From Clostridia bacterium (GTDB lineage: Bacteria > Bacillota > Clostridia > Oscillospirales > Acutalibacteraceae): a DNA stretch of 64,000 nucleotides. Positions within the stretch are counted from its first letter, which is position 1; each line of letters opens with the position of its first letter. The stretch covers positions 55,993 through 119,992 of the forward strand of contig JAGASD010000006.1 of assembly GCA_017621885.1 (NCBI GenBank). The letters run 5' to 3'. The notes beneath the pieces are model-generated. The model saw only the letters and a list, made by a program, of their open reading frames with translations, was not told the origin of the DNA and made no database searches. This document shows positions 24,182-29,122 of this stretch, piece by piece. The translations under genes were made by a program, and so were the position numbers.

Positions 24182-26758
24182 TTATTTCAACAGCTCTATC
24201 AGCTCCCCTACCTTTTGAGGTCGGGGTTTGTTAATTTTTTCAAGCATTTCATCAATCAGTTGGTCAACCTTTGTTACTTCTCTTTCAAATTCCTTTGCAG
24301 AAACGCGCAAAACACCGTAGCGCACGGCTGAAAGCTGAATGAGATTATCTGATGTGACAACTCTTACATTTTCATTTTTACCTATATCACTTATAAGCTT
24401 TTCAATATAATTGTCGCCGAGCTCACGCTCTTTTGTATACACAACGCGTATATTATTATAATTGTATTTTTTACCCGTATTACCGGGCACCTTGTAAGCA
24501 TCAAAAACAAGGACAGTTTCGCACTTTGTAAAAGCGCTGTAATTACAGAGTATGTCCATTAACTTATCACGAGCATCACTGAGATTATAATCAGCAATTT
24601 TTTTCAGATTTTCCCACGCAAATATGACGTTATAGCCGTCAACAATTATATATTTCTTTCGTTGAACAGGATTATATTCGGTTGTAACGGGCTTTTGGGG
24701 TGTTTTGTTATGACTGTATCTGTAATACGGGTGTTTATCAGGACCGAATTCTCTCTCCATAATTGCTTCAAGCTCTTTATCATCAATATGAAAATTGCGT
24801 TGATTCAGAGTTACCTCATAAGGAGTTCTTTCTTTTTGAAGACAGGATTCAATATGCATATATTCCGACACCTTATCCCATTTAACGTTAAAGCCTGCAC
24901 CATGAGCGCAGAACACTGAATCAGGTGTGTTTTCAAGGTCGCTTTCCGGAGAGTATTTAGACTCTGCAACAATTTCTTCAGCGTTATGACAAACATCGTA
25001 GCCGCAAACAACGCACGAAAAACGTCCCTTTCCGCCCGTGTAAGCGGCAACCTCACTTGCGTAGGAATTAAGGGTTGTAACAGGCGCCTTGCCCGTTATA
25101 ACGGAAAAGCCGTTATGCTCTTCCGGGTTGTTGAATTCACCGTATTTAAGCCTTATATCGCTTATAGCTCTGCCTATTTGCTCAGTGGGAACCTCAAGCC
25201 TGAAATTATAATACGGCTCTAAAAGAACTGATTCAGCCTGCATAAGACCTTGTCTTACGGCACGGTAGGTAGACTGCCTGAAATCGCCGCCCTCAGTATG
25301 CTTCAAATGAGCCCTGCCGGCAGCAAGAGTTATTTTCATATCAGTTATGGGCGAACCCGTGAGTACACCCAAATGCTCTTTTTCTGCAAGATGCATAAGA
25401 ACAAGATTCTGCCAGTTTTTATCGAGTGAATCTTCACTGCAGGCAGATTTAAACACAAGTCCGCTGCCGCGCGGCAACGGCTCAAGAATCAAATGAACCT
25501 CCGCATAGTGGCGCAAGGGTTCATAATGACCAACACCCTCAACTGTGCTTGCAATTGTTTCTTTATATAAAACTCTGCCCGAATCAATTTGGACGTCAAC
25601 ATCAAAGCGTTCTCTTATGATACCCTTTAAAATCTCCGTCTGAACCTCTCCCATCAAAGAAACATTAATCTCTTGCAGAAACGAGTTCCACGAAACGTGT
25701 AACTGAGGGTCTTCGGCCTCAAGCAAACGCATTTTTGGCAGGAACGTCTGTGGGTCACAGTCTTTGGGAAGAACGAGTCTGTAATTCATTACAGGTTCAA
25801 GGTATGATTCCGCAAAGTTTTCCTCGTCACCTATTCCTTCACCGCAATTAAGGTCTGTAAGCCCCGCAACTGCACATATACCGCCTGCTGAAACCTCATC
25901 GACATTAGTGAATTTTTTACCCGAGTAAATTCTTATGCCGTTAATTTTTTCATTTTTACCTTTATAAGAAACTATATCCTTAACCCTTAATTTGCCGCCG
26001 GTTACTTTTACATGAGTAAGCCTTTCTCCTTTTAAATCATGGGTTATTTTGAATACTTTTGCAGAAAAATCTTCTGAATAGTTGTTTTCATCTATGTAAA
26101 GTGAAAGTCCCGTCAGAAACTCTTCAACGCCCGTATTTTTAAGACCCGAACCGAAATAACAAGGAATCGCAAGGCGGTTTTTTATCAGTCTTTTTATTTC
26201 ATCATCTGTAACAGTGCCGTTTTCAAGATATTTTTCAAGCAAGCATTCATCACAAAAGGCAAGGTTTTCGTCTCGGTTTTCAATATCATCCGAAAAGTCA
26301 ACAATACCCGCACCGCACAACTCTTTTAAATCGTTTAAAACAGCGCTTTTTTCAAGACGGGCAAAATCCATTTTTGTAACGAATATAAAGGTTGGAATTT
26401 TATATATATCAAGTAATTTCCAGAGAGTTCTTGTGTGAGCCTGGACACCCTCTGTACCGCTTATAACGAGAATTGCATAATCAAGTATTTTTAAAATCCG
26501 TTCTGTTTCAGCGGAGAAATCAACGTGCCCGGGAGTATCAAGAAGCGCGATTTCAACATCCCCCGCCGAAAAAACAGATTGTCCTGCAAAAATGGTAATT
26601 CCGCGTTCTTTTTCAAGGGTATGAGTATCTAAGGTCGTGTTTCCTTTATCAACACGTCCTAATTCTCTTATAACACCTGCTTTATAAAGCAACGCTTCGG
26701 CTAATGTTGTTTTACCTGCGTCAACGTGTGCAATTATACCAACAACACTTTTCTTCAT
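24182..26758 (-). CDS. TetM/EF-G-like ribosomal GTPase fused to a YacP/Rae1-like NYN nuclease domain
   Basis: An 858-residue protein. The N-terminal half is a translational GTPase: HVDAGKTT (11-18), RGIT switch I, DTPGH (near 74-78) and TKMD (near 127-130). Domains II to V of the TetM/EF-G type run to about residue 680. From about 702 a separate NYN domain begins with IIVDGYNVIFAW and has acidic residues at about 707, 753, 782 and 804 (VDGYN, VFDAY, ELGDNY, TSDN). This matches the YacP family, whose B. subtilis member Rae1 cuts mRNA in the ribosomal A site. Both halves therefore target the same ribosomal site. It is distant from true tetracycline-resistance TetM, so drug resistance should not be assumed. 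It is monocistronic behind a terminator. Confidence 0.85.
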   Translation of the reverse strand: MKKSVVGIIAHVDAGKTTLAEALLYKAGVIRELGRVDKGNTTLDTHTLEKERGITIFAGQSVFSAGDVEIALLDTPGHVDFSAETERILKILDYAILVISGTEGVQAHTRTLWKLLDIYKIPTFIFVTKMDFARLEKSAVLNDLKELCGAGIVDFSDDIENRDENLAFCDECLLEKYLENGTVTDDEIKRLIKNRLAIPCYFGSGLKNTGVEEFLTGLSLYIDENNYSEDFSAKVFKITHDLKGERLTHVKVTGGKLRVKDIVSYKGKNEKINGIRIYSGKKFTNVDEVSAGGICAVAGLTDLNCGEGIGDEENFAESYLEPVMNYRLVLPKDCDPQTFLPKMRLLEAEDPQLHVSWNSFLQEINVSLMGEVQTEILKGIIRERFDVDVQIDSGRVLYKETIASTVEGVGHYEPLRHYAEVHLILEPLPRGSGLVFKSACSEDSLDKNWQNLVLMHLAEKEHLGVLTGSPITDMKITLAAGRAHLKHTEGGDFRQSTYRAVRQGLMQAESVLLEPYYNFRLEVPTEQIGRAISDIRLKYGEFNNPEEHNGFSVITGKAPVTTLNSYASEVAAYTGGKGRFSCVVCGYDVCHNAEEIVAESKYSPESDLENTPDSVFCAHGAGFNVKWDKVSEYMHIESCLQKERTPYEVTLNQRNFHIDDKELEAIMEREFGPDKHPYYRYSHNKTPQKPVTTEYNPVQRKKYIIVDGYNVIFAWENLKKIADYNLSDARDKLMDILCNYSAFTKCETVLVFDAYKVPGNTGKKYNYNNIRVVYTKERELGDNYIEKLISDIGKNENVRVVTSDNLIQLSAVRYGVLRVSAKEFEREVTKVDQLIDEMLEKINKPRPQKVGELIELLK

Positions 26759-26770
26759 ACCAATTCATCC

Positions 26771-26801
26771 TAAAAACCGACAGAACTCAAGTTCTGTCGG
26801 C
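26771..26801 (-). terminator. Terminator of the ruvC-to-clp gene cluster
   Basis: A perfect 10-bp stem CCGACAGAAC/GTTCTGTCGG with a four-base loop is followed by T5 on the minus strand, right after the Clp gene. Confidence 0.9.
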
Positions 26802-26806
26802 TAAAA

Positions 26807-29122
26807 TCATTTGAACGAAACCTCTATTTCGCCATTTACTGCAATAATTTCAATTTCATTAATTGAAACACCTGCATTTTCAACAAGAATATCTGCAACC
26901 TTATCTTCAATATTCTTTCTGATTGTGCGGCGAATGTCACGAGCACCTCTGCCGCCATCTTCAGATTTATCTGCAACAACCTCACAAACGCCGTCACCAA
27001 CAATAAGCTTGATTCCTTTATCATTAAGAGGCTGACGGAATTCTTCGATAAGAATAGCAGAAATCTTCACAAGCTCTTCCTTACCGAGAGTATTGAAAAC
27101 AACAATCTCGTCAACTCTGCCGAGGAACTCAGGACGAAGAAATTCCTTTAGTGCTTTAAGAGCTTTGTCCTTTGAAGCCTGATTTTTATCTCGATTAAAT
27201 CCGAGAGCATTTTCAGAAATATGACTGCCTGCATTGGAGGTCATAATAATAACGGTATTTTCAAAGCTGACCGTTCTGCCCTGAGCATCGTTTGTTTTAC
27301 CTTCATCAAGAACCTGAAGAAGGATATTAAGAACATCGGGATGTGCTTTTTCAATTTCATCAAAAAGAACAACGGAATATGGCTTTCTTCTCACCTTTTC
27401 TGTAAGCTGTCCCGCTTCATCATAGCCAACATAACCGGGAGGAGAACCAATAAGCCTTGAAACGCTGTGTTTCTCCATAAACTCTGACATATCAAGTCTT
27501 ATAAGGGTTTCCGGGGTTTCAAACAACTCGTTTGCAAGCTGTTTTACAAGCTCGGTTTTACCAACACCGGTAGGACCTACGAAAATAAACGATGCGGGCT
27601 TTCTTACAGCAGAAATCTGCACTCTGCTTCTTCTTATAGCAGCAGCTAAAACCTCAACAGCTTCGTCCTGACCGATAATTCTGCTTTTCAATTTACTTTC
27701 AAGATTTGAAAGCTTACGCATATCGTTTTCAATAATTTTTGAGGTGGGAATACCAGTCCAGAGGTTAATTACTTTCGCAATATCCTCCTCGGTAACATCG
27801 TTATCATCGGCTTTAATCTTTAGGTCTGCCGCTTCTTTTTCAAGAGCCATTTTTTCTGCCTTGAGTCTTGAAATTGCCTCGTAATCAGGGCCTTCACCCT
27901 CTAACTCATTAAATAACTCTTCTTCCCTTTCAGAAAGCTCTTCTATTTTTGCGGTAAGCTTCTGATAATCACTTATGGCAACATTTCTTAAATTAGCGCA
28001 AGTACACGCCTCATCAAGAAGGTCTATTGCTTTATCGGGCAAAAATCTGTCGTTTATATATCTTTCAGAAAGAGTTACTGCTTTATAAACCAATGAATCA
28101 GCAATTTTCACCTTATGGAAATCCTCGTAATATTCCTTAATACCCAAAAGCATATTATAACATTCGGAAACTGAGGGCTCCTCAACCTTAACAGGCTGAA
28201 AACGTCTTTCTAAGGCTGCATCCTTTTCAATATGCTTTCTGTACTCATTAAACGTTGTTGCACCGATAACCTGAATCTGACCTCTTGAAAGAGCAGGTTT
28301 AAGAATATTTGCAGCATTCATTGAGCCTTCAGCATCACCCGTTCCAACAAGGTTATGAACCTCATCAATAAAAAGAATGATGTTGCCCTCTTCCTTAACC
28401 TCATCAACGAGACCTTTGATTCTGCTTTCAAACTGACCGCGGAACTGAGTGCCTGCAACAAGAGACGTCAAATCAAGAAGATGTATTTCTTTATTTGCTA
28501 TTCTTGCAGGAACCTCGCCGGCGGCAATTTTTAATGCAAGCCCTTCTGCAATTGCGGTTTTACCGACACCGGGCTCACCGATAAGACAAGGATTGTTTTT
28601 TGTTCTTCTGCAAAGAATCTGTGTTACTCTGTAAATCTCCGTATCTCTGCCGATAATTCTGTCAATTTTACCCTCACGGGCTTTGGCAGTTAAATCAGTA
28701 CAATAAGAGCCAAGGAATTTACGCTTGGTTTTATGCTTGTTTTTCTTCTTTTTTGAAGATTTTTTATTATCCTTTTCGTCTTCGGGTGACTCATCCTTTT
28801 CATCGGATAACTCTTCACCCTCTGCTGTTTCCTCAGGTTTTGCAGCGCCGAACAAATTTTGCATAAAGGGCATTGTTCCCGCTCCGCCTAACTGAAAATC
28901 ATCCATATTATCCATAATATCGCCGAATTGTTCGCTCACAGCATCAATATCTTCCTCTGTGATACCCATATTCTGCATCATTTGTTTAATCGGACCTATA
29001 TTCATCTCAGAAGCGCATTTGAGACAAAATCCCTCCTGAGTTGTTTTTTCACCGTCAACACGTGAAACAAATATCACTGCAGGTCTTTTCTTACACCTGC
29101 TGCATATCATTTTGTTATTCAT
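26807..29122 (-). CDS. ClpE/ClpC-like Clp ATPase with N-terminal zinc finger
   Basis: A 771-residue AAA+ unfoldase. An N-terminal zinc finger has C7, C10, C33 and C36, followed by an acidic and Lys-rich linker (about 80-135). Two AAA+ modules carry Walker A motifs GEPGVGKT (near 196) and GPTGVGKT (near 507), with a coiled middle domain between. The double Clp_N repeat of ClpC is missing and the zinc finger resembles ClpE. An LGF tripeptide in the second module (near 645) is a candidate ClpP-docking loop. It probably feeds substrates to ClpP, which is not in the window. It is the last gene of a long cluster, 28 bases after pgsA. Confidence 0.9.
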   Translation of the reverse strand: MNNKMICSRCKKRPAVIFVSRVDGEKTTQEGFCLKCASEMNIGPIKQMMQNMGITEEDIDAVSEQFGDIMDNMDDFQLGGAGTMPFMQNLFGAAKPEETAEGEELSDEKDESPEDEKDNKKSSKKKKNKHKTKRKFLGSYCTDLTAKAREGKIDRIIGRDTEIYRVTQILCRRTKNNPCLIGEPGVGKTAIAEGLALKIAAGEVPARIANKEIHLLDLTSLVAGTQFRGQFESRIKGLVDEVKEEGNIILFIDEVHNLVGTGDAEGSMNAANILKPALSRGQIQVIGATTFNEYRKHIEKDAALERRFQPVKVEEPSVSECYNMLLGIKEYYEDFHKVKIADSLVYKAVTLSERYINDRFLPDKAIDLLDEACTCANLRNVAISDYQKLTAKIEELSEREEELFNELEGEGPDYEAISRLKAEKMALEKEAADLKIKADDNDVTEEDIAKVINLWTGIPTSKIIENDMRKLSNLESKLKSRIIGQDEAVEVLAAAIRRSRVQISAVRKPASFIFVGPTGVGKTELVKQLANELFETPETLIRLDMSEFMEKHSVSRLIGSPPGYVGYDEAGQLTEKVRRKPYSVVLFDEIEKAHPDVLNILLQVLDEGKTNDAQGRTVSFENTVIIMTSNAGSHISENALGFNRDKNQASKDKALKALKEFLRPEFLGRVDEIVVFNTLGKEELVKISAILIEEFRQPLNDKGIKLIVGDGVCEVVADKSEDGGRGARDIRRTIRKNIEDKVADILVENAGVSINEIEIIAVNGEIEVSFK

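Follow-up and report, generated by a model that had tools for sequence, protein, structure and literature searches.

What could an EF-G-like GTPase and a Rae1-like nuclease be doing in one protein? The question is raised by a gene in the window, that is, the whole 64,000-nucleotide stretch of a Clostridia bacterium contig that was analyzed here. The original prediction, which joined the two parts in a single polypeptide and left the strand unnamed, is borne out by Pfam matches to both parts in one intact open reading frame that runs from ATG to stop on the minus strand (Table 1); on the plus strand, the corresponding frame is interrupted by many stops. It was also surmised that such fusions may already be present in databases; the architecture has been in print since 2015, when Tet proteins of ten Clostridiales species were described as having acquired a YacP-like NYN RNase domain (Atkinson 2015; PMC4342817). 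We assume that these ten sequences belong to the clade of fusions delineated below. A functional study of the fusion was not found in the open-access literature, which leaves out the main Rae1 papers, including the paper on Rae1 distribution.

Domain organization and the nuclease part

Five Pfam domains of the 858-aa protein score over their cut-offs, namely GTP_EFTU (159.4 bits), EF-G_D2, EFG_IV, EFG_C and NYN_YacP (156.6 bits, E 7.3e-46, against a cut-off of 24.6 bits), and EFG_III is detected at 24.3 bits, below its 27-bit cut-off. With a G domain followed by domains II–V, III below cut-off, and with intact G motifs (Pfam and an alignment of 87 fusions, in which His78 of the DTPGH motif is present in 86), the protein belongs to the EF-G/EF2 family; its above-threshold Pfam match and its four conserved acidic residues also place it in the NYN_YacP (Rae1) family. 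Of the predicted GTPase portion, which was to carry the G motifs and EF-G-type domains up to about residue 680, the motifs are confirmed and the end is not, the EF-G-type part stopping near residue 592; the NYN domain predicted from about residue 702 agrees with the result of the HMM search. The segment that follows domain V (the tail) is common to the fusions and to their relatives that lack the NYN domain, and is absent from the Tet rows, the TetM-like rows and the EF-G row shown in the alignment.

Table 1. Features of the fusion gene and of the gap upstream of it (positions in the window)
Feature	Positions	Strand	Basis or remark
Whole fusion gene, 858 aa, ATG start	24182..26758	-	ORF and Pfam
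G domain, residues 6-222; P-loop, switch and DTPGH motifs present	26093..26743	-	Pfam and alignment
EF-G domain II, residues 231-306	25841..26068	-	Pfam
EF-G domain III, residues 322-391; weak, below cut-off	25586..25795	-	Pfam
EF-G domain IV, residues 394-508; best conserved domain of the fusions	25235..25579	-	Pfam and identity comparison
Domain IV tip loop, residues 484-494, HLKHTEGGDFR	25277..25309	-	alignment
EF-G domain V, residues 511-592	24983..25228	-	Pfam
Family-specific tail, residues 593-640, with SVFCAHGAGFNVKW...MH	24839..24982	-	alignment with NYN-less relatives
Linker, residues 641-703; one conserved segment near 659-676	24650..24838	-	alignment
NYN_YacP (Rae1-type) nuclease domain, residues 704-848	24215..24649	-	Pfam and alignment
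Terminator-like 10-bp hairpin, CCGACAGAAC-TTGA-GTTCTGTCGG, then TTTTTA	26777..26800	-	18 nt before the start codon, within the 48-nt gap

Relatives outside the genome samples were collected by querying named genomes with the last 269 residues of the protein, which yielded at least 591 relatives, possibly including separate NYN proteins; 80 loci were kept, with carriers in Oscillospiraceae, Lachnospiraceae, Faecalibacterium, Intestinimonas and Blautia, many of them from animal guts according to the record titles. These 80 loci, all read by tblastn, comprise 69 intact full-length fusions and 11 loci that were left out of the alignments (contig-cut, broken or with an unrecognized N-terminus). In two loci on named contigs (L092 and L123), the GTPase and the NYN domain lie in separate open frames, through either assembly error or decay.

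The NYN part matches the solved chains of Bacillus subtilis YacP (5mq8 and 5mq9, E 2.9e-23), and Rae1 is the sole solved protein that it matches at E <= 1. Residues D707, D753, D782 and D804 align with D7, D53, D81 and D104 of Rae1 and are aspartate in 87/87 aligned fusions; together with N710, they are kept in 80/80 named loci (tblastn, no motif filter), with the proviso that only D782 and D804 among the four acids are free of selection, because these loci were found via peptide patterns covering D707/N710 or D753 and the row filters also required the DGYN motif and a P-loop. All four are kept, too, in 15 fusions found by whole-protein match, in line with the claim that the acidic residues of the nuclease are conserved among homologues. 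Rae1 of B. subtilis thus shares with the fusion the NYN_YacP family and all four acidic residues and differs from it in being a free protein (the solved chain has 181 residues). Furthermore, at the position of Rae1 His55, 86/86 fused NYN domains have Tyr, whereas separate NYNs have His in 76% and Tyr in 18% of cases.

Rae1 has been described as a translation-dependent nuclease that cuts mRNA, with the A site as its known or proposed place of action; background was also drawn from passages of PMC6613710, PMC10100781, PMC11780869, PMC12320835 and PMC1780047. An alternative is that the GTPase checks ribosomal particles and the NYN domain trims or destroys rRNA or tRNA, i.e., that the fusion serves ribosome assembly or quality control. 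NYN/YacP was once proposed to function in rRNA and tRNA maturation, and Ria1, a member of the EF2 family, acts in ribosome biogenesis (both in passages of PMC4342817); in addition, the separate NYN gene, the Listeria counterpart of Rae1, adjoins rlmB in a Listeria record, where the gene order is cysS, Mini-RNase 3, rlmB, NYN, sigH. However, Rae1 as characterized in the sources available cuts mRNA during translation, and no result of the present analysis points to rRNA or tRNA, so that we consider this alternative unlikely.

In a tree of 37 fused and 36 separate domains, the fused NYNs form a cluster of their own (SH-aLRT 99) that includes two separate NYNs, L071 and L208. The respective genomes (G299 and G318) also carry a GTPase without NYN domain from the sister clade described below; fission, transfer and an older free form are all candidate origins for these two proteins.

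The GTPase part in relation to Tet proteins and EF-G

Among solved chains, the GTPase part is best matched by TetO and TetM, and the best NCBIfam model for the fusion is the Tet ribosomal-protection equivalog NF012153 (residues 6-587). This match favors a ribosome-protection type of tetracycline resistance to which the RNase contributes, as do the label of one member in a public record and the text of Atkinson 2015, which suggested an RNase-based resistance mechanism, or rRNA cutting, for Tet-NYN proteins (passages of PMC4342817). The score, however, is 443.2 bits against a cut-off of 775, five further family members score 383-456 bits, all under the cut-off, and the Tet(M) control reaches 874 bits.

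In a GTPase tree of 75 rows, the fusions group with their NYN-less relatives in a single clade (SH-aLRT 100), with Tet(M/O/W/S) and the other TetM-like rows outside. Within this clade, 38 fusions form a clade (SH-aLRT 99) that includes none of the NYN-less rows, and the 23 NYN-less rows form another, with a support of 88 that is under the 95 line. This tree, like the NYN tree, comes from a quick LG+G4 search, with SH-aLRT values as the sole measure of support. It covers 38 of the 87 available fusions, 23 of the 25 NYN-less proteins, four Tet classes (rows for Tet(Q), Tet(T), TetB(P) and Otr(A) being absent), other TetM-like proteins and three EF-G rows, one annotated as such and two assigned by similarity; 32 of the 75 rows were flagged by the tree program for unusual letter make-up.

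The tip of domain IV also sets the family apart. Its consensus is H-x-KHT-x-GGDFR, in which K486, H487, T488, G491, D492, F493 and R494 are invariant across 87 fusions and 25 NYN-less proteins; K486, H487 and T488 are kept in 79/79 named loci covering them, and C617, W627 and H635 of the tail in 80/80 (both by tblastn), the tip, the tail, D782 and D804 lying outside the peptide patterns by which these loci were found. His484, present in 86/87 fusions, lies in the column in which the EF-G rows have their tip histidine (3/3) and the Tet rows have Tyr. This histidine of EF-G is important for translocation. The column of Tet(M) Pro509 holds Lys486 in 87/87 fusions and Lys in 25/25 NYN-less proteins, whereas Pro is found in 4/4 Tet rows and in one of seven other TetM-like rows. 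Pro509 sits in the tetracycline site of Tet(M) (passages of PMC8161019); this test is indicative rather than decisive, because the Tet(M) variants S508A and S508A-P509A-V510A can remain active (passages of PMC4750697).

Overall, compared with Tet(M), Tet(O), Tet(W) and Tet(S), the fusion shares a GTPase with the EF-G domain layout and ~30-33% identity over residues 1-590, and differs in Lys for Pro509, His for Tyr507, the tail, the NYN domain and a separate clade. EF-G shares the domain layout and the histidine at the column of residue 484, but matches the fusion in two pieces (~40% and 27% identity), has a different tip and lacks both the tail and the NYN domain; an EF-G-type gene with a 693-aa frame is present elsewhere in the genome of the window (C61). 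With its score below cut-off, its own clade and Lys at the Pro509 column, the Tet label of the fusion family looks wrong as judged from sequence, and the phylogeny and the tip residues do not support a strictly TetM-type GTPase, but point to a separate family with a tip of its own. Given also that no cluster of neighboring genes is common to more than eight of 69 named fusion loci, in a comparison of how widely neighbors are shared between loci, we regard tetracycline resistance as improbable, the least probable of the functions considered here. Relative to the Tet class as it appears in passages of Atkinson 2015, which has the same architecture of an EF-G/TetM-like GTPase with a YacP-like NYN domain, the present fusions form a clade apart from Tet, have other tip residues, are far more widely distributed and have NYN-less relatives.

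A 933-aa fusion of Agathobacter rectalis (NZ_CP143948.1; L165, 5691-8492) is annotated as a TetM/TetW/TetO/TetS tetracycline resistance protein and scores 389 bits against the 775-bit cut-off. At least one member of the family is thus publicly filed as a tetracycline-resistance protein, while 6/6 members scanned, including that of the window, score below the curated Tet cut-off, and labels of this kind might lead to overcounting of resistance.

Distribution and origin of the fusion

In a sample of 60 genomes that includes that of the window, NYN_YacP was found in 18, in each case within a frame of 686-1229 aa and therefore fused, the shortest (in G005) being cut by a contig end. The genus of the window's organism carries the fusion in 13/22 genomes, including that of the window; six of the nine genomes without it are less than 90% complete. 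Given that the other three (G010, G018 and G019) are at least 95% complete, the fusion is dispensable.

At the class level, 391 genomes were sampled, with NYN_YacP in 249 and a whole-protein match with an E value of at most 1e-60 in 187, Tet-like proteins included. Fused genomes, defined by a match to residue 770 or beyond or by an open frame of at least 840 aa, cut genes being uncounted, number 129/391 (a hand count among the matches listed, including the genome of the window). This spread, together with the preserved acidic residues of the NYN domain, makes it clear that the fusion is no chance join. In a phylum sample of 398 genomes, 29 match at 1e-120, of which 23 read as fused and six as NYN-less, judging by how long the frame is and how much of the query is covered.

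A separate NYN of Rae1 length is encoded in at least 64/391 class genomes, after a short frame in G280 was dropped as probably contig-cut. Both forms, with the separate NYN over the Pfam cut-off, occur together in a single genome of the 391 (G386), against ~21 expected if independent (hypergeometric P 1.7e-11, a value that ignores shared ancestry and is only a guide, because related genomes are not independent). Two NYN matches were detected in just five class genomes: G386 with both forms, G189 with two fused copies, and G192, G257 and G298 with a second match below threshold; the finding of a single genome with both forms is thereby independent of the two listings behind the counts of fused and separate NYNs. 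In view of this near-exclusion, the fusion seems to take the place of Rae1.

The original prediction had singled out a split of the two domains in close relatives as evidence against it. Such a split exists in the sister clade, and 22/28 class genomes picked among the matches listed carry the NYN-less orthologue, 15 of these 22 with a separate NYN gene and seven with none; inside the fusion clade, it is not seen. The 15/22 genomes in which a separate NYN accompanies the NYN-less GTPase were discounted as evidence, 11 of the 15 belonging to one family (f64). In the relatives sample, too, G028 and G056 encode the NYN-less orthologue and no NYN. Because NYN-less orthologues occur in genomes without any NYN, this GTPase has a role that requires no nuclease, and because, conversely, many class genomes encode a separate NYN but nothing that closely matches the GTPase, neither part needs the other.

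These observations bear on a second alternative, in which the NYN domain is an ordinary Rae1, the GTPase does a separate job (e.g., back-translocation or recycling) and the fusion merely brings both to ribosomes. Apart from the existence of each part on its own in other genomes, this would agree with a linker that is long and variable (65-115 residues from H635 to D707 in 87 fusions) and with the two separate NYNs inside the fused cluster. The single fusion clade free of NYN-less rows and the near-absence of a second, separate NYN suggest, on the contrary, that the linkage matters, and we consider such a tether without teamwork rather unlikely, if a shade less so than a function in rRNA or tRNA quality control.

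The NYN-less proteins stop within ~20 residues past the tail motif SVFC..G.GF.V.W...MH, so that the tail is a trait of the family, behind which the nuclease was apparently added. A single fusion event fits the trees. The architecture itself is already known; in the open-access literature, no mention was seen of its distinctness from Tet, of a sister clade without NYN, of a single fusion event or of the exclusion of a separate NYN.

A mobile origin of the fusion was considered and rejected: a search for close relatives in viral_contigs gave none, and only two plasmid records (one of them a 518-kb Monoglobus record) and two phage records cover at least 80% of the query. The latter, both filed as 'Bacteriophage sp.' from human faeces, contain nearly full-length relatives (MT835563.1, 5421-7964, 51% identity, and MT835514.1, 15276-17810, 48% identity), for which prophage cargo and bacterial contigs are the candidate explanations.

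Genomic context and a possible function

In the window, the fusion gene is preceded by a Clp-type ATPase gene (26807-29122) across a gap of 48 nt. The order cvpA-pgsA-clp-fusion recurs in six of eight genus loci checked besides the window, the divergent G004 and G016 lacking it, and in 0/5 loci outside the genus. The gap contains a terminator-like hairpin, the exact stem of which stands at the same place in 8/22 genus genomes; a ninth (L027) has one G-U pair, and a run of five T follows the stem in six of the nine. The stem is absent from the nine genus genomes that lack the fusion and from G004 and G016. As there is little room past the hairpin, transcription of the fusion gene must start upstream and pass it, and expression may therefore depend on read-through, with the hairpin placed like an attenuator. 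Two further copies, in G006 and G012, lie between convergent genes, as plain terminators would; the copy in G012 (L255, 3318-3338), the sole exact one of that genome, is located directly behind an EF-G-like gene and looks like a terminator. Family-wide, terminator-like hairpins precede the gene in 10/85 fusions and 19/405 control ORFs, by a rule that allowed no G-U pairs and missed most genus hairpins, and no conservation of the hairpin was seen outside the genus among the 85 fusions scanned.

Domain IV is the best conserved domain of the fusions, with a mean pairwise identity of 0.75, compared with 0.50-0.55 for domains G, II, III and V and 0.58 for the tail. It is also the best conserved domain of the NYN-less relatives (0.66), of four Tet rows (0.87) and of seven TetM-like rows (0.51), though not of the three EF-G rows; because Tet and TetM-like proteins share this feature, it does not by itself single out a new role. 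The tip of TetM domain IV reaches the decoding centre (passages of PMC8161019), and the counterpart tip of the fusion is highly conserved; like the intact GTPase motifs, this is in keeping with the original prediction.

We hypothesize that the fusion acts in the A site as a GTPase by which a nuclease that cuts mRNA is tethered to stalled ribosomes, a reading that we hold tentatively and consider the likeliest of those discussed. Under this scheme, the fusion would be a chromosomal ribosome factor of Clostridia, the EF-G-like GTPase part of which binds the ribosomal factor site, while the distinctive tip of domain IV enters the decoding centre of ribosomes with an empty or stalled A site. The tethered NYN domain would then cut mRNA at or beside the A site, the job of free Rae1 in Bacillus, after which tmRNA-SmpB could free the ribosome, in this presumed order of events. 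Because the decoding centre would hardly have room for domain IV and a Rae1-like domain together, either a hand-over is to be expected, in which the GTPase clears or holds the site and the NYN arm subsequently swings in on the linker, or a cut just outside.

The A-site scheme is supported by the intact GTPase motifs and NYN acidic residues, the single fusion clade, the near-exclusion of a separate Rae1-type gene and the presence of both SmpB and tmRNA in the genome of the window. The main doubts come from the NYN-less orthologues in NYN-free genomes, the dispensability within the genus and the problem of room in the A site. The role in ribosome rescue or stall-specific mRNA decay that had been suggested for the fusion is, likewise, what we infer. 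The broader proposition, that the fusion is a translational GTPase which cuts mRNA and replaces free Rae1 in roughly one third of the class genomes sampled, appears doubtful at this point, albeit less so than either the tether without teamwork or rRNA/tRNA quality control.

Clostridia are a major group among gut bacteria, and the fusion family is a clean testable candidate for a factor that clears their stalled ribosomes; the genomes with fused, NYN-less and separate forms provide a natural comparison set.
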